Translations under genes and position numbers: made by a program
Shown here: positions 5,597 through 60,224 of the stretch, piece by piece
Layout: the number at the start of each line of letters is the position of its first letter
Numbering within the stretch: position 1 is the stretch's first letter
Assembly: GCF_014279595.1 (NCBI RefSeq)
Contig: NZ_CP047943.1
Location: 1,488,001 to 1,552,000 of the forward strand
Length of the DNA stretch: 64,000 nt
Origin: Synechococcus sp. RS9909
GTDB taxonomy: Bacteria; Cyanobacteriota; Cyanobacteriia; PCC-6307; Cyanobiaceae
Reading direction: 5' to 3'
Notes under the pieces: generated by a model
Databases searched by the model: none
What the model was told of the DNA's origin: nothing
Seen by the model: only the letters and a program-made list of their open reading frames with translations

Positions 5597-5988
5597 TGGG
5601 GCGACTGCGCCAGTGGTGTCAAGGGGGTCTGCTCTGCGGCTTGGTCCTGCTGTTGAGCTGGTGCTGGAGCGGACCGGTCTGGGCAGGCCCCGTGGACTGG
5701 CGTGAAGTTCCCGCCACCAGCGAAGGCCGCCAATGGTGGGATGCGGGCAGCCTGCGCCGCGATCGAGACGGCAACCTCTCGGTGTTGAGCCGCTACACCG
5801 CGGAGACCGATCCCGACACCCCCAGCCTGGGGACCCTGGTGGTGATGCAGATTGACTGCGGCCAGAAGCTGTATCGCGACCAGCAGGTGAATGGATTGCC
5901 GCGCTGGGGTGCCCAGTGGGAAGCTGCCGGCGATGATGCCCTGATCAGCAACGTGATCGAGGCGGTCTGCAGCTCTGCTCCGGCCTGA
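5596..5988 (+). CDS. Exported protein of unknown function (surface-adhesin E-like?)
   Basis: 130 residues with a clear Sec signal peptide: basic start, a Leu/Cys-rich core (GLLCGLVLLLSW) and a likely cleavage after VWA near residue 31. The mature part has a WREV / WWDAGSLRRDRDGNLSVLSRY strand pattern and two cysteines (IDCGQKLYRD and AVCS). This resembles the small surface-adhesin E fold seen in bacterial exported proteins, but I recognise that only by pattern. It starts on the accD stop codon and is followed directly by the oxidoreductase gene, so the three are likely one transcript. Confidence 0.7.
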   Translation: MGRLRQWCQGGLLCGLVLLLSWCWSGPVWAGPVDWREVPATSEGRQWWDAGSLRRDRDGNLSVLSRYTAETDPDTPSLGTLVVMQIDCGQKLYRDQQVNGLPRWGAQWEAAGDDALISNVIEAVCSSAPA

Positions 5989-7131
5989 ATGCCACTCTCT
6001 GCCTCGACGTCCCCCTCGAATGCCCCAGTGCCGATCGGCGTCGCCATCGCCGGCCTCGGCTTCGGCGAAGCCGTGCATCTCCCAGCCCTGCGCAGCCTGG
6101 CGGATGCCCAACCTGTGGCGCTCTGGCATCCCCGCGCCGAACGGCTTGATCAGGCCTGCGCCCAGCATGGGCTGAAGGGGTACCACCACTGGGATGCCCT
6201 CATGGCCGATCCGGCCGTTGAGGCCATCGTGATCGCCACCCCACCGCAGCCACGGTTTGATCTGGCTCGCCGCGCCCTTGAGGCGGGCAAGCACCTGCTG
6301 CTGGAAAAACCGGTCGCCCTCGAGGCTGACCGGGTGGCCGAACTGCAGCGACTCGCGATCCGGCAGGGGTGCAGCGTGGCGGTGGATTTTGAATATCGGG
6401 CCGTGCCGCTGTTCATGCAGGCGGAACGCCTGCTGGCGGCGGGGGCGATCGGCACCCCCTGGCTGGTGAAGCTGGATTGGCTGATGAGCAGCCGCGCCAA
6501 CCCCGAGCGGCCCTGGACCTGGTATTCCTCAGCCGAGCAGGGGGGCGGTGTGATCGGCGCCCTGGGCACCCATGCCTTCGACATGCTCGCCTGGTTGGTG
6601 GGCGAGATCGACCAACTCCAGGCGTTGCACCACACGGCCATCACGAAACGCCCCCTGCCCGGTGGCGGCCAGGCCTCAGTCGATGCGGAGGATGTGGCCC
6701 TGATCCAGGCCCGCCTGCTCAGCCATGGAGGCACTGGGCCTGTGCCCGCCCAGGTGAGCCTTGCCTCCGTGGCGCGCAACGGACGCGGCTGTTGGCTGGA
6801 GATCTACGGCTCCGAGGGAAGCCTGGTGCTGGGCAGCGACAACCAGAAGGATTACGTGCACGGCTTCGGACTCTGGCTGGCCCAGAACGGGGAGTCGCCC
6901 CGCAGCCTTCAGGCGGATGCGGATCTGCGCTTCGCCACCACCTGGAGCGACGGGCGGGTGGCTCCCGTGGCGCGCATCCAGCAGTGGTGGATCGACAGCA
7001 TCCGCTCCGGCCGCCCCATGCTGCCGGGGCTGAGCGAAGGGCTACGCAGCCAGCAGGCCTGTGACCGCTGCAGACTGATGCCTTGGGACTCGCCCGGAAC
7101 AACACGGAATCGGGCGAATGAGATCCGGTAG
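5989..7131 (+). CDS. Gfo/Idh/MocA-family NAD(P)-dependent oxidoreductase
   Basis: 380 residues. The N-terminal Rossmann fold reads GVAIAGLGFGEAVHLPAL (about residues 14-31), with the family's hallmark EKPVA near residue 105 and the C-terminal alpha/beta domain with GGGVIGALGTHAFDML. Family members oxidise or reduce sugars, cyclitols or bilins. The substrate cannot be read here; I see nothing that singles out biliverdin reductase or inositol dehydrogenase. It begins at the base after the preceding stop codon. Its own stop lies inside an inverted repeat (7112-7139) that precedes fba. Confidence 0.85.
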   Translation: MPLSASTSPSNAPVPIGVAIAGLGFGEAVHLPALRSLADAQPVALWHPRAERLDQACAQHGLKGYHHWDALMADPAVEAIVIATPPQPRFDLARRALEAGKHLLLEKPVALEADRVAELQRLAIRQGCSVAVDFEYRAVPLFMQAERLLAAGAIGTPWLVKLDWLMSSRANPERPWTWYSSAEQGGGVIGALGTHAFDMLAWLVGEIDQLQALHHTAITKRPLPGGGQASVDAEDVALIQARLLSHGGTGPVPAQVSLASVARNGRGCWLEIYGSEGSLVLGSDNQKDYVHGFGLWLAQNGESPRSLQADADLRFATTWSDGRVAPVARIQQWWIDSIRSGRPMLPGLSEGLRSQQACDRCRLMPWDSPGTTRNRANEIR

Positions 7132-52340: not shown

Positions 52341-53605
52341 TGGCGACACCGGAATGGATTGTGGATGCGATCAGCACACCCGGTGTGATCGCCGCCAAGC
52401 TCTGGCTGCGGAGGGGAAGCGGCAGTGATCCGCTCGGACAGCGTGGCGCCCATCAACTGCTGGGATCCAGCCTCACCCGAGGCTGCGGCCCCTACGACCA
52501 TCTCCAGGTCGCCGACCTGGTGGAGGGCTGCGGCGCTGGCCTGCGGTGCGACACCCATGAAGACGGCATCCTGATCAGCCTCAAATGCCAGGACCGTGAT
52601 GCCAGGCGGCTGCTGCCCCTGCTGGGGTGGATGCTCGCCGATCCCCATCTGGCCGAGGAGCAGGTGGAGCTGGAACGGGATCTCAGCCTGCAGGCCCTCC
52701 AGCGCCAACAGGAGGATCCCTTCCACCGGGCCCATGACGGCTGGAGACAACTGGCCTATGGAGACGGTCCCTATGGGCACGACCCGCTGGGAATCGCCGC
52801 CGAACTGGAGACGCTGAATGCGGAGATCCTGCGTCCCCTGGCCGGGCAGTTGGCCCGCCGCCAGGGCATCCTCGCCCTCTCCGGCACGATTCCTGACGGT
52901 CTGCTCACGGAGATGCAGGCCTTCCAGGGGTTCAGCGAACCGGCCACCGACCGCGACTGCTCAGGCGCAACCGGCTTGCCACCCATGGCAAAGACCGACC
53001 GATCGGCACGGGTTGGCCTCCAACCGCTCGACACCGAACAGGTGGTGATCATGCTCGGCCAGCCGACCCTGCCCCATGGCCATGCCGATGACCTGGCCCT
53101 GCGCATGCTGCAGGCGCACCTCGGGGTCGGCATGACCAGCGTGTTGTTCCGTCGACTGCGGGAGGAGCATGGCGTCGCTTACGACGTGGGCATTCACCAT
53201 CCAGCCCGCGCCGGTGCCGCTCCCTTTGTGCTGCATGCCAGCAGCAGTGCGGAGCGGGCGGCGCTGAGTCTGCGCTTGCTGCAGGAGGCATGGGATGAGC
53301 TGGCCCAGCGGCCGCTCACGACCCAGGACATGACGCTGGCCGCAGCCAAGATCCGCGGTCAGATCGCCCATGCCACCCAGACCTCAGGCCAACGGGCCGA
53401 GCGTCGCGCCCAGCTCAGGGCCCTCGGACTGGCCGATGATTACGACCACACCAGCCTGGAGCGCCTGGCCACACTCGAACCCGAGCAGCTGCGCAGGGCC
53501 GCCGAACGTCACCTTGATCGCCCCCTGCTCAGCCTCTGTGGACGCGGCGCCGTGATCGACTCTCTGGCATCAGAGTGGAGCCAAAGGACTCAGCGCAGCC
53601 GTTAA
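52340..53605 (+). CDS. M16 family protein, inactive partner subunit
   Basis: 421 residues, same fold as the preceding gene. At the place of HxxEH it has HQLLG (38-42), so it cannot bind zinc. YDHLQVADLVEGCGAGL and RLREEHGVAYDVGIHHP (substrate-binding region with R-x(n)-Y) are preserved. The pair mirrors mitochondrial MPP beta and alpha, where the inactive chain binds substrate. The last four bases overlap the opposing sipA end. Confidence 0.92.
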   Translation: MATPEWIVDAISTPGVIAAKLWLRRGSGSDPLGQRGAHQLLGSSLTRGCGPYDHLQVADLVEGCGAGLRCDTHEDGILISLKCQDRDARRLLPLLGWMLADPHLAEEQVELERDLSLQALQRQQEDPFHRAHDGWRQLAYGDGPYGHDPLGIAAELETLNAEILRPLAGQLARRQGILALSGTIPDGLLTEMQAFQGFSEPATDRDCSGATGLPPMAKTDRSARVGLQPLDTEQVVIMLGQPTLPHGHADDLALRMLQAHLGVGMTSVLFRRLREEHGVAYDVGIHHPARAGAAPFVLHASSSAERAALSLRLLQEAWDELAQRPLTTQDMTLAAAKIRGQIAHATQTSGQRAERRAQLRALGLADDYDHTSLERLATLEPEQLRRAAERHLDRPLLSLCGRGAVIDSLASEWSQRTQRSR

Positions 53606-53844
53606 GAGGCAGGGCCAGCGGATGCACCGGCCTCGGAGATCCGCTGCAACTGGTCGAGGGGAATCAGAAACGTGCCGCGACGAAAGCGCACCACGGCGGT
53701 GTTCAGCGGCCGCAGACCGACCAGTTCTCCCGGTTCCTCGGTGGTCACAAGATCAGCCGGCCTGAGCATGGGCATCGGATCAGCGGTTTTCAAATAGGGC
53801 AAAGGGCGTCGGAGCTGGACGCGATCGCCGATGACTGGGTTCAT
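53602..53844 (-). CDS. sipA: SipA-like protein (DUF3148), partner of histidine kinase NblS
   Basis: 80 residues, SH3-like barrel: VGDRVQLRRP-type start (IGDRVQLRRPLPYLKTADP) and PMPMLRPADLV, then VVRFRRGTFLIPLDQL. SipA binds and activates the sensor kinase NblS, which controls light and nutrient stress responses through RpaB/SrrA. A frame open to 54489 runs under bioY and is a shadow; ATG 53844 gives the family size. 48 bases separate it from the divergent bioY. Confidence 0.85.
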   Translation of the reverse strand: MNPVIGDRVQLRRPLPYLKTADPMPMLRPADLVTTEEPGELVGLRPLNTAVVRFRRGTFLIPLDQLQRISEAGASAGPAS

Positions 53845-53892: not shown

Positions 53893-54468
53893 GTGATGCC
53901 CGTGCGGGCTCTGGCCACCTGGAGCGGCGCCGTCGCCGGCCTGATGCTGATTCTGGTGGGCAGCCTCATGCCCGCTGCCGTTGTGCTTCCCGTGCTGCCT
54001 CCCCAGGTGCTGCCGCTGCCGAGCACCTGGCAGGTGCCGGCCCTGTTGCTCACGGCCCTGGTCTGCGGCCCCCGCGCCGGCGTGATGGCGGCCATGGCCT
54101 ATCTCACCATCGGCCTTGTGGACCTGCCCGTCTTCCATGACGGCGGTGGCCTCGGGTATCTGCTCAATCCCGGCTTCGGCTATCTGGCCGGCTTTGTTCC
54201 GGCCGCCTGGCTCTGCGGGCGCCTGGCCCAGCAACGGGGCATGAACGATCTGGCGCGTCTCAGCCTGGCCGCGATCGCCGGGCTGCTCACGATTCAACTC
54301 TGCGGTCTGCTCAATCTGCTGCTGGGCAGCCTGTTCGGACGCTGGAGCGAACCACTGCCCACATTGCTGTTCAGCTACGGCATCGGTCCGTTCCCAGCCC
54401 AGATCGCTCTCTGCATTGCCGCCGGGGTGTTGGCCCTGCCGCTCCGGCGCCTGCTGATCATTGATTGA
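53893..54468 (+). CDS. bioY: Biotin transporter substrate-binding protein BioY
   Basis: 191 residues, six hydrophobic segments. Family patterns: LLLTALVCGPRAGVMAAMAYLTIGLVDLPVF and GGGLGYLLNPGFGYLAGF. BioY is the S component of an ECF biotin importer; no bioM/bioN genes are near, so it may use a shared energising module or work alone. Start GTG 53893 or ATG 53896. The stop overlaps the lspA ATG (TGATG). Confidence 0.92.
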   Translation: MMPVRALATWSGAVAGLMLILVGSLMPAAVVLPVLPPQVLPLPSTWQVPALLLTALVCGPRAGVMAAMAYLTIGLVDLPVFHDGGGLGYLLNPGFGYLAGFVPAAWLCGRLAQQRGMNDLARLSLAAIAGLLTIQLCGLLNLLLGSLFGRWSEPLPTLLFSYGIGPFPAQIALCIAAGVLALPLRRLLIID

Positions 54469-54986
54469 TGACGCAGCGCCGGCCCCCATCGATGCCCACC
54501 CTCCCCTCCAGCAGGCGGGGCCTTTCGAGGACAGCGCTCCTCGGCCTTGCCACTCTCCTGGTGCTCCTCGACCAAGGCAGCAAGGCCTGGGTGCGGCACC
54601 ATCTGCTCCCGGGTGTCGTGGCCCCGCTGATCCCCGGCCTGGTGCAGCTGCGCTGGGTCCGCAACAGCGGCGCCGCCTTCAGCCTCTTCACGGATGCCAC
54701 AGGGCTGCTCGCCCTGCTCAGCCTGGTGGTGGCGTTGGTCCTGTTGGTCTGGTTGTGGCGTGCTCCCAGGCTTGGGCTGTGGCAAGGGCTGGCCCTCGCC
54801 TTTCTGCTGGGCGGAACGGTGGGCAACGGAATCGATCGCTGGCGGCTCGGCCATGTGACCGATTTTCTGGAACTGGTGCCGATCCCGTTTCCCATCTTCA
54901 ATGGAGCTGATCTCGCCATCAACCTTGCCGTCGCCTGCTTCGCCATCGACGCCCTCAGCCGACGCCGTGACCCCAACGGCACCTGA
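54468..54986 (+). CDS. lspA: Lipoprotein signal peptidase
   Basis: Cleaves the signal peptide of prolipoproteins in the inner membrane. 172 residues, four membrane helices. Catalytic region: RNSGAAFSLF, GNGIDRWRLGHVTDFLEL and FNGADLAINLAV, which carry the two catalytic aspartates. The start overlaps bioY and the end overlaps the PBP gene, so all are translated from one message. Confidence 0.96.
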   Translation: MTQRRPPSMPTLPSSRRGLSRTALLGLATLLVLLDQGSKAWVRHHLLPGVVAPLIPGLVQLRWVRNSGAAFSLFTDATGLLALLSLVVALVLLVWLWRAPRLGLWQGLALAFLLGGTVGNGIDRWRLGHVTDFLELVPIPFPIFNGADLAINLAVACFAIDALSRRRDPNGT

Positions 54987-57141
54987 GCCGCCTACGCCAG
55001 GCCCCCCCTCGGTGGCACGGCTCTGCATCGATCAGGCCGGTCAGCCCTCGCAGTCGATCCCCCTCCATGGCGAGGCCTACCGCCTCGGGCGTGAGGAGGG
55101 AATGGAACTGAGCCTCGACCATCCTGCGGTCAGCCGGCAGCACGCGCTGCTGCGTCGACGTGGCCGCCGCTGGGTCCTGGAGGATCTCAACTCCACCAAC
55201 GGGCTCTGGTGGCGGGGGCGACGGGTGCAGGAACTGGAGCTGCGCGATGGCGATCGGATCAGCCTCGCTCCTGCCAGTGAACCGGGAGCCCCCTGCCTGC
55301 GTTTTCTCAATCCAGCCGAACAGGGCCGGCGCAGGCTGGAACGGCTGCTGGGGTTCGGGCTGTTGACGGGCCTTGGGGCCACGGCGGCGCTGATGCTCAT
55401 CGCCGTGCTCGATGTGCCGATCCGCGGACGCCTGGCCACGGTGCAGGGACCGATCGCCATCTACGACCGCCTGAACAAACCCCTCGAATCGGTGGATTCC
55501 AGCCGCCACCGGGAGTTGAAGACGATTTCAGCGTTCTCTCCTGCGCTGGTCGATGCCCTGCTGAGCTCAGAAGACAATCGCTTCTGGTGGCATCCGGGTG
55601 TGGATCCCATTGGCACCCTGCGCGCATTCGCCACCAATCTGAGCGGCGGTCGCCTGATCGAAGGGGGCAGCAGCCTCACCCAGCAGCTGGCACGCAGCCT
55701 GTATCCCGATCAGGTCGGGCAGGGCGACACCCTGGGCCGGAAATGGCGGGAGCTGCTGGTGGCCCTGCAGCTGGAAAGCCGTTTCAGCAAGGGAGAGCTG
55801 CTGCTCAGTTACCTCAACCGGGTGTATCTCGGCGTGGGCTGGGGGTTCGAGGATGCCTCCCGCGTCTACTTCAACAAATCCGCCTCCAAGCTGTCGCTGC
55901 CCGAAGCGGCGCTGCTTGTGGGGCTGCTGCCATCGCCCAATGGCCACGATCCCTGCCGCTACCCGCAACGAGCCCTGGAGGCGCGCAACCGCGTGCTCAA
56001 CAAGATGGCGGATGCCGGGCGCCTTTCCCTGGAGGAGGCCCGTCTGGCAAGACGCCAACCGATCCAGCTGGCTAAGGCGGCCTGCAGCAAGGAATCGTTG
56101 CGCCGCTCCGCTCCCTTCTACACCGATCAGGTGCGGCGCGATCTCAGCGCCCTGGTCGGACCTGATGTGGCCGCCGAAGGCAATTTTCTGATTGAAACCC
56201 ACCTCGACCCGGTGCTTCAGCAGGTGGTGGAGCGGCAGCTGCAGGAGCTCCTCAACCAGGCTCAAGGGCTGGGCGTGGGCGAGGGCGCCGCGGTGGTGAT
56301 CGACAGTCGCAACGGCGGTGTGCTCGCCATCGCCGGCGGCAGGGACTACCGCTCGAGCCAGTTCAACCGGGCCACCATGGCGCTGCGTCAGCCCGGCAGC
56401 ACCTTCAAGCTGTTGACCTACCTGGCGGCGCTGCAGCGGGGGATCAAGCCAGGCGACGGCATCGATTGCAGCACCCTGGAGTGGGGCGGCCAACGCTTTG
56501 AAAGCAGCTGCAATGGTCGCCTCAGCCTCACCAGTGCCTTTGCCTCCAGCAGCAACACGGCGGCGCTGCGCCTGGCGCGGCGGGTGGGGCTGGAGCAGGT
56601 GGTTCGCCAGGCTCGGGCCCTGGGGATCAACACGCCGCTCGATCCTGTACCCGGGCTGGCGCTCGGCCAGAGCGAGGTGCGCCTGATCGAACTGACCGGA
56701 GCCTATGCCGCCGTTGCCAACGATGGGCTCTGGCACCCCCCCACCACGATTCGCAGGCTGCTGGATGCGGAGAGCTGCTCCGCCGACACGTTGAAACGCT
56801 GCGGCAGCCTCACCGGCGATGGCTCGGCGCAGGTGAGCAGCGCCCGTCGCGCCATCAGCAAAGACGTGGCGCGACGCATGCAGGCGATGCTGCGGGCTGT
56901 GGTGCGCGGTGGCACCGGCTCCGCCGCCTCCCTGGGGGGCCTGGAGGGGGGCAAGACCGGCACCACCAACGATGGCCGGGATCTGCTGTTCATCGGCTAC
57001 GAACCAAGCCGGCACTGGGTTCTCGGCATCTGGCTCGGCAATGACGACAACAGCCCCACCGCCAGCTCCAGCGCCCTGGCCGCCTCCCTTTGGGGCGACA
57101 TCATGCGCGCCGCCGGCAGGGGCAGCGCTGGTCAGCGATGA
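54967..57141 (+). CDS. Class A penicillin-binding protein with N-terminal FHA domain
   Basis: Peptidoglycan glycosyltransferase/transpeptidase. 724 residues from GTG 54967 (ATG 54901 would add 22 and overlap lspA further). Residues 38-100 form an FHA domain (YRLGREEG, VSRQHALL, LNSTNG), a phosphothreonine reader, placed in the cytoplasm before the single membrane helix (about 128-150). GT51 domain: catalytic Glu202 in SSEDNRFWW, GGSSLTQQLA, RKWRELLVALQLE. Transpeptidase: Ser478 in PGSTFK, SSN 528-530 and KTGTT. The FHA domain suggests control by a Ser/Thr kinase. The stop overlaps the GTPase start by four bases. Confidence 0.92.
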   Translation: MTPTAPEPPTPGPPSVARLCIDQAGQPSQSIPLHGEAYRLGREEGMELSLDHPAVSRQHALLRRRGRRWVLEDLNSTNGLWWRGRRVQELELRDGDRISLAPASEPGAPCLRFLNPAEQGRRRLERLLGFGLLTGLGATAALMLIAVLDVPIRGRLATVQGPIAIYDRLNKPLESVDSSRHRELKTISAFSPALVDALLSSEDNRFWWHPGVDPIGTLRAFATNLSGGRLIEGGSSLTQQLARSLYPDQVGQGDTLGRKWRELLVALQLESRFSKGELLLSYLNRVYLGVGWGFEDASRVYFNKSASKLSLPEAALLVGLLPSPNGHDPCRYPQRALEARNRVLNKMADAGRLSLEEARLARRQPIQLAKAACSKESLRRSAPFYTDQVRRDLSALVGPDVAAEGNFLIETHLDPVLQQVVERQLQELLNQAQGLGVGEGAAVVIDSRNGGVLAIAGGRDYRSSQFNRATMALRQPGSTFKLLTYLAALQRGIKPGDGIDCSTLEWGGQRFESSCNGRLSLTSAFASSSNTAALRLARRVGLEQVVRQARALGINTPLDPVPGLALGQSEVRLIELTGAYAAVANDGLWHPPTTIRRLLDAESCSADTLKRCGSLTGDGSAQVSSARRAISKDVARRMQAMLRAVVRGGTGSAASLGGLEGGKTGTTNDGRDLLFIGYEPSRHWVLGIWLGNDDNSPTASSSALAASLWGDIMRAAGRGSAGQR

Positions 57142-58748
57142 AAGGGCAGAAGCGATGGATCGTCTGGGCGGGTGGCGCCCTGGTGGTCCTGATCGTGCTG
57201 GGGATGGTCCTGCAGGCGATTCGCAACCTGCTGTGGGATCTCAGCTACTGGCTGCCGCCCTGGCTGGTGGGTCCGGTGCTGCTGCTGGGATTCGGTGTGA
57301 TCGCCGCCCTGGCCTGGCAGCTGGGTTGGCCCTGGTGGCAAGCCTGGCGCCAGGGAGCGGGCCGAGCGGGTGGCGCCGGCCGGGGTCGCACCGCAGCAGC
57401 GCCGCCAGCGCCGGACAATCGCCGCCAGGCCGCCGAACAGAGCCTGGAGAGCATCGACCGCCTGCTGGAGAAGCTTCAGGATGAGGTGGCCCGCGAGGGC
57501 CTGCGTCAGGAGCGTGAGCGGGTGGCGCAGGAACTGAAACGCGGCGATCTCACCGTGGTGGTGTTCGGCACCGGATCAAGCGGCAAAACCTCCCTGATCC
57601 GCGCCCTGCTCCAGGAGATGGTGGGGGAGGTGGGCGCCGCCATGGGCAGCACCAGCGAAACCCGCAGTTATCGGCTGCGCCTCAAGGGCCTCGAGCGCGG
57701 CCTGAAACTCATCGACACCCCCGGCATTCTCGAAAGTGGTCGCGATGGCCGCGAACGGGAGCAGGAAGCCCGCCGAGAGGCCAGTCGAGCCGATCTGATG
57801 CTGGTGGTGGTGGATGGCGACCTCAGAGCGGCGGAGCTGGAGGTGACCCGCCATCTGGCCGGACTGGGCAAACGGCTGCTGCTGGTGCTGAACAAATGCG
57901 ACCTGCGGGGAGAGGAGGAGGAACGGCGCCTGCTCGCCCTGCTGCATCGGCGTTGCGGCGATCTCCTCAGCAAAGACGACGTGGTATCCGCGAGTGCAGC
58001 CCCCCAGTCTGTGCCGAGACCTGGACGCTCCCCCTGGCAACCGCCGGCCGAAGTGGACCGCGTCTTGCGACGCCTCGCCGTCGTGCTCCATGCCGATGGC
58101 GAGGAACTCCTGGCCGACAACATCCTGCTTCAGTGCCGCCATCTGGGTGAAGCCGGCCGGGACTTGCTCGATCGTCAACGTCGCCAGGAGGCCGGCCGCA
58201 TCGTCGATCGCTATAGCTGGATCGGTGGAGGGCTGGTGGCGGCCACTCCCCTCCCCGGGGTTGATCTGCTGGGCACCGCTGCGGTGAATGCCCAGATGGT
58301 GATCGAGGTGGCGGGGGTCTATGGGGTGCAACTGACCCGAAGCCGGGCCCAGGAGCTGGCGATGTCGGTGGGTCGCACCTTGGCGGGCCTGGGGGTGGTG
58401 AAAGGGGCTGTCTCCCTGATCGGCACAGCCCTCACCCTCAACCTGCCCACCCTGCTACTCGGCAGAGCGGTGCAGGGGGTCGCGGCCGCGTGGCTCACCC
58501 GCATCGCCGGTGCCAGTTTCATCACCTTTTTCCAGCAGGATCAAGACTGGGGCGATGGCGGCGTGCAGGATGTGGTGCAGCATCACTACGACCTCAGCCG
58601 GCGCGAGGCCTCGCTCAGGCGCTTTCTGGAGACGGCGCTGCGTCGGGTGGTGGAACCACTGCAGCGGCGGGAGGCGAAACGACTGCCGCCCCAGCCAGGG
58701 CCTCGGGCGGCGGCGGACGCATCGGACCGCGGGAATCCAGCACCGTGA
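57138..58748 (+). CDS. Membrane-anchored GTPase with DUF697 (YcjF-like) domain
   Basis: 536 residues. Two N-terminal membrane helices (about 10-30 and 40-65), an Ala/Arg-rich linker, a coiled coil (QAAEQSLESIDRLLEKLQDEV), then the G domain: P-loop FGTGSSGKTSLI, DTPGI and VLNKCDL. The C-terminal DUF697 part (GGGLVAATPLPGVDLLGTAAV and following) is helical and membrane-active. The family is common in cyanobacteria; role unproven, perhaps membrane or envelope trafficking. ATGA overlap with the PBP gene. The last 134 bases overlap the opposing small membrane protein gene. Confidence 0.9.
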   Translation: MKGQKRWIVWAGGALVVLIVLGMVLQAIRNLLWDLSYWLPPWLVGPVLLLGFGVIAALAWQLGWPWWQAWRQGAGRAGGAGRGRTAAAPPAPDNRRQAAEQSLESIDRLLEKLQDEVAREGLRQERERVAQELKRGDLTVVVFGTGSSGKTSLIRALLQEMVGEVGAAMGSTSETRSYRLRLKGLERGLKLIDTPGILESGRDGREREQEARREASRADLMLVVVDGDLRAAELEVTRHLAGLGKRLLLVLNKCDLRGEEEERRLLALLHRRCGDLLSKDDVVSASAAPQSVPRPGRSPWQPPAEVDRVLRRLAVVLHADGEELLADNILLQCRHLGEAGRDLLDRQRRQEAGRIVDRYSWIGGGLVAATPLPGVDLLGTAAVNAQMVIEVAGVYGVQLTRSRAQELAMSVGRTLAGLGVVKGAVSLIGTALTLNLPTLLLGRAVQGVAAAWLTRIAGASFITFFQQDQDWGDGGVQDVVQHHYDLSRREASLRRFLETALRRVVEPLQRREAKRLPPQPGPRAAADASDRGNPAP

Positions 58749-58839
58749 TCAACGCGAGGTACACCACACCGATCAGCACCGACAGGGCGCCGGTGACAAT
58801 CGCCACCCAGCGACCACGGGGCGAGGCAGGTGCAGCCAT
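58615..58839 (-). CDS. Small single-span membrane protein
   Basis: 74 residues: one helix (WVAIVTGALSVLIGVVYLALI) followed by TVLDSRGPMRPPPPEAL and a Pro/Ala-rich tail. The segment LDSRGPM-PPPPEAL looks conserved among marine picocyanobacteria from memory. Its ATG overlaps the decarboxylase stop (TGATG). Only the Pro/Ala tail lies over the GTPase gene on the other strand. Confidence 0.65.
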   Translation of the reverse strand: MAAPASPRGRWVAIVTGALSVLIGVVYLALITVLDSRGPMRPPPPEALAGAAVVSPPAAAVVPPPDAAPSPESA

Positions 58840-60224
58840 CAGCCGTTCTCCAGAACCGAACGATTGAGCATGGCAGCCAGCTGATCGAGGTGATGACTCT
58901 GGGTGTGGGGATTGCCCAGCACCGCCTTCAAGGGATGGCAACCGCCATGGAAGGGGCGCGACAGCATGAACCCCTGCTCCAGCAGCCTGGCGCGTGTGGC
59001 CTCTGACCAGGCATCGACTTGGTCGGGCGCAGCGATGCGGGGCCGGCACACCAGCAGATGCAAAGGGCCGGAACTGACCTGAATCCGCTCCGGATCCAGA
59101 AGGGCTTCCAGTTGCTGGCGACGCTGCAAAGCACCCTGGAGCAGCGATCGGATCCCGGTCTCGCCCAACTGGCGCAGGCCCAGCCAGAGCTTGAGAATCT
59201 CCGCAGGTCTTGAGCCCTGCAAACCCTGCTCGCCGCCATGGGCGTCGCCCCAGGCCGGCTCCATGTAGGGCAGACCGGTGGCAAAGGCCTCCGCCAGCAG
59301 GCGTCGGTCGGCCACCAGGAGCAGGGAGGAGGTTTTGGTGATTCCGAGCAATTTCTGGGGATTGACCGTGATCGAATCGGCAAGGCCCAGCCCCTCAAGG
59401 GGGGCCGAGGTGTCGGGGGAGAGCGCATAAACGGCTCCAATCGCACCGTCCACATGCAGCCAGATCCCGCGACGACGACAGAGCTCCGCCAGCTGGGGCA
59501 GGGGATCGATCGCGCCGCGCACGGTGGTGCCGGCGGTGGCCACCACGGCCAGACAGGGTCGTCCTTCCGCCTGAAGCTGCTCCAGTGCGGTCTCGAGCGC
59601 CTCCAGCCGCATGGCGCCGTCGGCATCGACGGCGATGCGACGCAGGCCATCAGGCTGCAACCCCATCACGCGCACCGCCTTGGCGAGCGACGTGTGGGCC
59701 TCGTCGCTGGCGAGCACCACCGCCCCAGGCTCGGCGCCCAGACCAGCCCGCTGCCGGGCCACCACCAGGGCCATCAGATTGCTGAGGCTGCCGCCACTGG
59801 CCGGCACGCCACCGGCGCCTGAGGGCAGGCCAAGGCGCTGTGCCAGCCACTGGCAGAGCTGTCGCTCCAGATGACTGAGGCTGGGCGCCAACTCTTCGGC
59901 GAGGAGATTGTTGTTGAGGCCGGCGCAGATCAGGTCGGCGGCGATACTTGCTGTCAACGGCGGCGGATCCAGATGGGCCAGAGCGCCGGGATGGGACGGG
60001 CGGTAGGCCCCATCCATCACCAGTTGCAGGTCCTCCAGCAGCGCGGTGGCCGAGCGCGGGGTCGGCTCCGGAGCGATCGCCGGCAACACCGAGAGGGCCG
60101 GCAAGGGCCCCCGGCCCTCGGCATCGGCGAGCCAGCGACAGAGCCTTTGGCTCGCCTGATCGAGAAACTCCTGCAGCGCCGGATCAAGCCCCTCCGGCGC
60201 AGCAAAGAAAGGCAGGGTCAGCAT
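58839..60224 (-). CDS. PLP-dependent group II amino acid decarboxylase
   Basis: 461 residues from ATG 60224 (other starts to 60293). Cofactor region: ASGGSLSNLMAL, AGTTVRGAIDPL, HVDGAIGA, and the Schiff-base Lys in VNPQKLLGITKTSSLLLV. The NPQK(L)LG form is nearer to cysteine sulfinate/glutamate decarboxylases (NPHK) than to aromatic decarboxylases; substrate not determinable here. Could supply beta-alanine, taurine-like compounds, or an amine. Coupled to the small membrane protein gene. Confidence 0.85.
   Translation of the reverse strand: MLTLPFFAAPEGLDPALQEFLDQASQRLCRWLADAEGRGPLPALSVLPAIAPEPTPRSATALLEDLQLVMDGAYRPSHPGALAHLDPPPLTASIAADLICAGLNNNLLAEELAPSLSHLERQLCQWLAQRLGLPSGAGGVPASGGSLSNLMALVVARQRAGLGAEPGAVVLASDEAHTSLAKAVRVMGLQPDGLRRIAVDADGAMRLEALETALEQLQAEGRPCLAVVATAGTTVRGAIDPLPQLAELCRRRGIWLHVDGAIGAVYALSPDTSAPLEGLGLADSITVNPQKLLGITKTSSLLLVADRRLLAEAFATGLPYMEPAWGDAHGGEQGLQGSRPAEILKLWLGLRQLGETGIRSLLQGALQRRQQLEALLDPERIQVSSGPLHLLVCRPRIAAPDQVDAWSEATRARLLEQGFMLSRPFHGGCHPLKAVLGNPHTQSHHLDQLAAMLNRSVLENG

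Follow-up and report, generated by a model that had tools for sequence, protein, structure and literature searches.

The window analysed here is a stretch of 64,000 nucleotides from Synechococcus sp. RS9909 (G000:C1:1488001-1552000; source genome 2.60 Mb, single contig). It encodes FHA-PBP1A, a class A penicillin-binding protein (PBP) with an N-terminal FHA domain. The main finding of the current work is a partnership between this protein and a membrane Ser/Thr kinase encoded outside the window; the loss of the two together in related genomes suggests that the kinase signals directly to wall synthesis. With a confidence somewhat better than even, the kinase is proposed to signal to PBP1A, likely by way of its own phosphorylated juxtamembrane threonine, on which the FHA domain would dock. 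In this mechanism, one dedicated kinase would make the phosphothreonine that is read by the cytoplasmic FHA domain. The most likely docking site would be the juxtamembrane threonine motif of the kinase itself, phosphorylated in trans or in cis, and docking may bring the PBP to the kinase at the site of growth, or switch PBP activity there.

The synthase and the kinase

The features of the two proteins are as follows.

54967-57141, + strand: FHA-PBP1A, class A PBP with N-terminal FHA domain (PF00498, PF00912, PF00905); GTG start chosen
55078-55266, + strand: FHA domain (PF00498); pocket residues GR, S..H and STNG intact
55354-55410, + strand: single membrane helix of the PBP (amino acids 130-148), by hydropathy
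55477-56007, + strand: transglycosylase domain (PF00912), EDxRF motif intact
56284-57105, + strand: transpeptidase domain (PF00905); SxxK, SxN and KTG intact
G000:C1:129927-132029 (= L001:1285-3390), outside the window: membrane kinase of 701 amino acids (PF00069)

PBP1A consists of one FHA domain, one hydrophobic segment, a transglycosylase and a transpeptidase, in that order. Since a single hydrophobic segment separates the FHA domain from the catalytic domains, the former should be cytoplasmic and catalysis should take place outside. The matches to PF00912 and PF00905 with their catalytic motifs place the protein among the class A (bifunctional) PBPs, and the transglycosylase Glu (SED-type), SxxK, SxN and KTG are kept in all 39 aligned orthologue rows. 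The FHA match reaches 65.5 bits against a cut-off of 20.7, and the nearest solved FHA domains are those of Rv1747, EmbR and Rv0020c/FhaA (best relative E 5.9e-9).

A paralogous FHA-PBP, 40-44% identical to the main one, occurs in several genera. The residues GR, S, H and N, which we take to belong to the phosphothreonine-contacting pocket, are invariant in 39/39 orthologue rows and in 19/19 paralogue rows; the Thr of STNG is found in 39/39 of the former versus 1/19 of the latter. By family match and pocket residues, the domain is a predicted phosphothreonine reader. An earlier note on this DNA, made from the sequence alone, had described an intact FHA domain before the membrane helix and had made conservation of the binding residues in orthologues a condition of its reading; both points held, and a degenerate pocket was rejected as a possibility.

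The FHA domain of PBP1A is the only one matched (PF00498) in the window genome. Likewise, a single Hanks-type kinase (PF00069) exceeds the Pfam cut-off there, with 58.3 bits against 31.7. It consists of a kinase domain, a linker, one membrane helix and an extracytoplasmic part; a Pfam scan of it gave no PASTA repeats, so it is not a PASTA kinase. A second PF00069 match in the genome, a frame of 637 amino acids, lies below the cut-off and may be an ABC1/UbiB-type protein. Synechococcus UW140 and WH7803 are among the relatives of the window genome (kinase matches, scan of named genomes). In the AlphaFold model of the WH7803 relative of the kinase (mean predicted local distance difference test score, pLDDT, 73.5; predicted template modelling score 0.42), a kinase fold is present whose top match in the fold search is an entry for PknA/PknB of Mycobacterium tuberculosis. 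The extracytoplasmic part is modelled as helices and beta strands; the fold search, in which kinase domains dominated the matches, did not identify this domain.

Shared retention and decay

The presence of FHA-PBP in 121 genomes of the family (Cyanobiaceae) was called from match rows, an orthologue being a match of about 60-100% identity that includes the FHA part. Genomes with the gene in two pieces (G034, G094) or reaching position 612 (G036) were counted as carriers. An orthologue is present in 69 genomes. The kinase query matches in 84, comprising all 69 carriers and 15 others. The catalytic core of the kinase (HxD, N, DxG) is intact in 68/68 readable carriers; the kinase of the remaining carrier, G034, ends at a contig end before the catalytic loop, and those of G064, G009 and G094 are partly cut by contig ends with the core still read. 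Among the 52 non-carriers, the kinase match is missing in 37, decayed in 14 and intact in 1. The association of the intact core with carriers gives a Fisher p of 2e-33, with kinship ignored. An FHA domain is found in 73 of the 121 genomes and a kinase over the cut-off in 74, with both in 72; exactly one FHA domain occurs in 43 genomes, all of them FHA-PBP carriers.

The decay in non-carriers takes several forms. In G015 and G044, the kinase keeps the HGD Asp and is without the Asn of the catalytic loop; in G035, G002 and G111, this Asn is gone along with DFG and the activation loop; in G005, G060 and G074, both HGD and DFG are missing. C-terminal parts alone are left in G071, G081, G013, G030 and G027, and the G101 kinase is broken. 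It is the kinase domain that is struck, and the extracytoplasmic part is often left (G071, G081, G013, G030, G035, G002, G111). Three genomes (G005, G060, G074) have neither the main PBP nor the core of the main kinase but retain the paralogous FHA-PBP together with its linked kinase locus, which argues for specific pairing.

In a further sample, 50 of 80 kinase loci were checked, many of them from species already represented among the 121 genomes. The main FHA-PBP is present in 41 of them (in some in pieces), unclear in 1 (G409) and absent in 8. The kinase is decayed or truncated in 4 of these 8 (L322, L336, L348, L349).

Kinship was considered with a tree of the neighbouring GTPase gene from 87 genomes, a quick tree with long branches that serves as a guide only. 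FHA-PBP requires 5 changes on this tree and the kinase core 6. The starred branches force at least 4 FHA-PBP changes, giving 4 independent pairs, and the kinase follows FHA-PBP in 3.9 of the 4 on average and never goes the opposite way. None of the 7 members of one g3 clade has the PBP, and broken kinases occur in both subclades that surround G057, whose kinase is still intact; this pattern fits a loss of the synthase first and a decay of the kinase after.

It might be argued that the two genes have no functional link and are shed together as small marine genomes shed all signalling. The kinase is absent from 37 of the 52 non-carriers, many of which have genomes of 1.6-2.0 Mb. However, genomes of 2.1-2.6 Mb also lose both (G005, G060, G074, G015, G044, G035, G002, G071, G081, G101, G111), some of these larger genomes keep another locus of FHA, kinase and PP2C genes, and the decay in several non-carriers is limited to the kinase domain. 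Joint shedding is therefore regarded as very unlikely. Simple genome reduction was rejected, or at least weakened, on account of the losses in larger genomes, the domain-specific decay and the independent pairs on the tree.

The juxtamembrane threonine motif

Directly after the kinase domain, in a Pro/Ala-rich and otherwise variable linker, stands the motif MP[E/D]STGPxxR[A/S][D/E]R-T-x-x-L-x-P. Its Thr290 and Leu293 (position +3) are present in 69/69 carriers, as are Pro278, Gly282 and Pro283; Arg289 is present in 68/69. The same count of 69/69 applies to Pro312 and Arg332, which lie farther into the linker. Such a conserved threonine in a juxtamembrane linker is the feature, at the level of sequence, of docking of the PknB-FhaA type. 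Of the 15 non-carriers with any kinase match, 13 are without RTxxL, G044 having Pro for the Thr, and the exceptions are G057 and G015. Residues 271-312, which span the motif Thr, T273 in this numbering, and what follows, have a pLDDT below 50 in the WH7803 model, as would be expected of a flexible linker. Outside the family, the pattern T[VILM]x[VL] occurs in 12 of 22 linkers versus a mean of 2.1 and a maximum of 7 in 2000 shufflings. This pattern was picked after viewing the sequences and serves as a lead only; one of the 22 linkers (L390), badly cut to 2 residues, was scored as a miss.

The kinase and FHA-PBP may be partners while the FHA domain reads some other phosphoprotein, a third protein phosphorylated by the kinase, such as a divisome or elongasome protein. 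The shared decay speaks for partnership and not for a particular ligand, the loss of the motif may merely accompany the loss of the kinase domain, and the mycobacterial FhaA is described as binding the kinase substrates MviN and CwlM as well (PMC11898655, PMC12599244). On the other hand, the threonine island is present in 69/69 carriers, and most decayed kinases have lost it or carry a changed form. A ligand other than the juxtamembrane threonine is considered unlikely, though with a share of the probability that deserves attention.

Is the kinase active?

Several observations weigh against the proposed signalling from the kinase to PBP1A. The two genes are not neighbours, the kinase gene lying about 1.4 Mb from the FHA-PBP operon. 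A sign test on only 4 independent pairs yields 0.125 and could not fall to 0.05. G057 has no PBP and nevertheless keeps an intact kinase core and the juxtamembrane Thr. The same holds in the further sample for the metagenome-assembled genomes at L276, L282, L306 and L314, though such genomes are incomplete. The non-carrier G015 retains RTLAL. As to novelty, a general co-occurrence of FHA domains and Ser/Thr kinases in bacteria was already stated in PMC2176072. Finally, the beta-3 Lys is replaced by Arg in 68/68 carrier kinases read, and the alpha-C Glu is absent, its position not being conserved. By its sequence, the kinase is filed as divergent and possibly pseudo.

The last of these observations raises the alternative that the partner is a pseudokinase, a nucleotide-binding scaffold that would hold the PBP, with the threonine, if phosphorylated, modified by something else. 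Families with traits such as the beta-3 Arg and the missing alpha-C Glu, namely DYD and ActPs2, are classed as pseudokinases, and the tail of the MviN pseudokinase recruits FhaA, according to PMC12599244. Against this stand the catalytic Asp, the Asn and the DxG Asp, kept in 68/68 carriers and lost in non-carriers. Catalysis depends on the HGD Asp, and nucleotide binding does not; the conservation of this residue in carriers and its loss, in most cases, with the PBP speak for kinase activity. In addition, no second kinase domain over the cut-off is present in the window genome to perform the phosphorylation, and relatives of the kinase outside the family have the canonical beta-3 Lys (CVLKEF) in 22/22 fetched, with HRD in 21/22 by pattern. 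The pseudokinase is thus thought improbable, and a kinase that phosphorylates its own juxtamembrane threonine for the FHA domain is still preferred.

The change from Lys to Arg at beta-3 is, in itself, a natural one of the Cyanobiaceae kinase family: the catalytic Asp is still conserved there, and outside relatives keep the Lys.

Comparison with known systems

One close parallel is the pair PknB-FhaA (Rv0020c) of M. tuberculosis, in which a membrane Ser/Thr kinase bears a phosphorylated juxtamembrane segment and an FHA protein reads it in cell-wall control (PMC12077195, PMC11898655); the former reports binding of FhaA by the phosphorylated PknB juxtamembrane domain. Juxtamembrane phosphorylation is predicted for the kinase described here, and the FHA domain of Rv0020c is among the nearest solved ones to that of PBP1A. 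FhaA, however, is a separate adaptor, whereas here the FHA domain is built into the peptidoglycan synthase, and the kinase lacks PASTA repeats and has an atypical N-lobe.

In Streptococcus pneumoniae, the juxtamembrane threonines of StkP are phosphorylated, and all PBPs are enriched with a phosphomimetic form of its juxtamembrane domain, even though FHA domains do not occur in streptococci; the readers of the phosphorylated domain in streptococci are given as unknown (PMC12077195). Here, phosphorylation of the threonine is predicted, and an FHA domain sits on the PBP. The mycobacterial pseudokinase MviN offers another likeness: once its tail is phosphorylated, FhaA is recruited to it and peptidoglycan synthesis is inhibited (PMC12599244), and recruitment of an FHA domain by the tail of a kinase fold, with regulation of peptidoglycan synthesis, is what is proposed here. 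MviN differs in lacking catalytic residues and in being phosphorylated by PknB, according to the same paper; HGD, N and DFG are kept in the present kinase, and the window genome has no other kinase domain over the cut-off. Rv1747 and EmbR, the nearest solved FHA sequences besides FhaA, also have FHA domains fused to a membrane or effector protein, but the fusion is to an ATP-binding cassette (ABC) transporter or a regulator and not to a PBP.

The FHA-PBP domain fusion is probably already listed in domain databases. A full-text literature search, with most subscription papers outside its coverage, found no paper describing the function of FHA-PBP in the text it could reach, and it found none on picocyanobacteria with a phosphoproteome. 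As far as this search reaches, the specific pairing of FHA-PBP with the kinase and the docking motif are new.

The operon and its neighbours

FHA-PBP1A is the third gene of an operon whose other members are as follows.

53893-54468, + strand: bioY, biotin transporter S component (PF02632, E 3.7e-31); GTG start; first gene of the operon, order conserved
54468-54986, + strand: lspA, prolipoprotein signal peptidase II (PF01252, E 2.2e-34); ATG start
57138-58748, + strand: membrane GTPase with two N-terminal hydrophobic segments (PF01926, PF05128/DUF697); ATG start
57552-57896, + strand: MMR_HSR1 domain of the GTPase (PF01926)
58128-58601, + strand: DUF697 domain of the GTPase (PF05128)

The genes are chained by a TGATG stop/start junction between bioY and lspA (54466-54470), an overlap of 20 bases between lspA and FHA-PBP1A, and an ATGA junction between FHA-PBP1A and the GTPase (57138-57141). 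The 20-base overlap depends on the GTG start at 54967. This start is uncertain; an in-frame ATG at 54901 would give an overlap of 86 bases and a GTG at 55012 a gap of 25 bases. A CRR42-like gene (PF11347; window 53602-53844, - strand) lies upstream of bioY, as it does in all 20 fetched FHA-PBP loci. A reading frame of 76 amino acids at window 58615-58845 (- strand), without a Pfam match, overlaps the 3' end of the GTPase gene on the opposite strand.

Loci were fetched from 20 of the 69 FHA-PBP genomes, representing 17 genera, and from 20 of the 52 non-carriers. The order CRR42, bioY, lspA, FHA-PBP, GTPase and pyridoxal phosphate-dependent decarboxylase is identical in 20/20 carrier loci, so the arrangement is not due to chance, and an order peculiar to one strain was rejected. 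Counted from the PBP stop, the closest start available to the GTPase is at -4 to +3 bases in 17/20 loci and no more than 16 bases off in 20/20.

These tight junctions could mean that PBP, GTPase and lspA act as a unit in envelope growth, and the bioY-lspA-FHA-PBP adjacency recurs outside the family in 5 of the 19 loci examined with flanks of 1.5 kb. But the GTPase is present in 121/121 family genomes, including the 52 without FHA-PBP, and in 20/20 non-carrier loci it directly follows bioY-lspA, with the order unchanged. Outside the family, the GTPase adjoins FHA-PBP in 0 of the 19 loci and lspA does so in 6. Because the GTPase and lspA stay in order where the PBP has been lost, a joint role with the PBP is unsupported, and a functional unit of this kind is very improbable. 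By sequence comparison, the GTPase is a neighbour independent of FHA-PBP, and the operon coupling is an ordinary neighbourhood. Thus, of what the earlier note had claimed, the chained four-gene operon was confirmed by family matches and sequence; its order was not confined to this strain, an outcome that the note had named as refuting. The route from Ser/Thr kinase signalling to peptidoglycan synthesis gained support from the invariant pocket and the tie to one kinase; that the GTPase and lipoprotein maturation share a role with the PBP found no support.

Decayed C-terminal remnants of FHA-PBP are still present between lspA and the GTPase gene in two non-carriers, G044 and G015:

L188:5560-6176: C-terminal FHA-PBP gene remnant, decayed
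L189 about 5690-6073, reverse strand: C-terminal FHA-PBP gene remnant, decayed

These remnants imply that the gene was lost in situ there. Full-profile FHA-PBPs, from the FHA part to the end, are found across the class outside the family in roughly a hundred genomes (rows not counted exactly). Judging from this distribution, FHA-PBP is old, and its position beside lspA may be old as well.

The paralogous locus and other observations

The paralogous FHA-PBP gene is divergently oriented from genes for an FHA membrane protein, a kinase, a VWA protein and a PP2C_2 phosphatase; the locus is absent from the window genome. Like the main pair, it joins an FHA-PBP with a Ser/Thr kinase; unlike the main pair, it has the kinase linked in one locus together with a PP2C_2 phosphatase. 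Read from its gene content, it is a second, gene-linked association that shows FHA-PBPs and kinases going together. The locus may resemble the TerY-P triad. The module (L086:6104-14775 and L084-L103) also encodes a 360-amino-acid protein that matches no Pfam family, and its other side is flanked by a rhomboid gene; it has the look of a second phosphosignalling system directed at the wall.

No PP2C_2 phosphatase (PF13672) that might oppose the main kinase was found in the window genome. This family exceeds the cut-off in 31 of the 121 family genomes, and the cases listed are mostly at the paralogous locus. One SpoIIE-type phosphatase (PF07228) is present in the window genome.

An ABC transporter-like protein with two FHA domains is encoded in G015 (L101:3347-5704, - strand), near a cluster of kinase, VWA and PP2C genes and several genes for trypsin-like proteases (names assigned by eye). 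In the near-complete genomes of genus g32 (e.g. G032, G056, G070; 1.8-2.0 Mb), the PBP1A query matches only at 1e-7 to 1e-11, and these genomes are apparently without any class A PBP.

Evolutionary and functional meaning

In many picocyanobacteria, the repertoire of Hanks-type kinases and FHA domains may have shrunk to one hard-wired pair: a working kinase with Arg for Lys, and an FHA synthase that would dock on the kinase's juxtamembrane phosphothreonine. The pairing would date to the ancestor of oxygenic cyanobacteria, and the kinase domain would decay once the synthase is lost. This broader account is possible but doubtful.

Control of peptidoglycan synthesis by kinases is usually exerted through adaptors, or many targets are phosphorylated directly; in the present case, the synthase itself carries the reader. 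With a single kinase over the cut-off and a single FHA domain, a route from kinase to wall can be tested with one kinase, one threonine and one PBP. Single Ser/Thr kinases are reported in three marine Synechococcus strains and one Prochlorococcus strain, and none in other strains, in PMC2176072. If the genes named there are orthologous, the pairing could assign a function to the sole Ser/Thr kinase of several marine Synechococcus strains.

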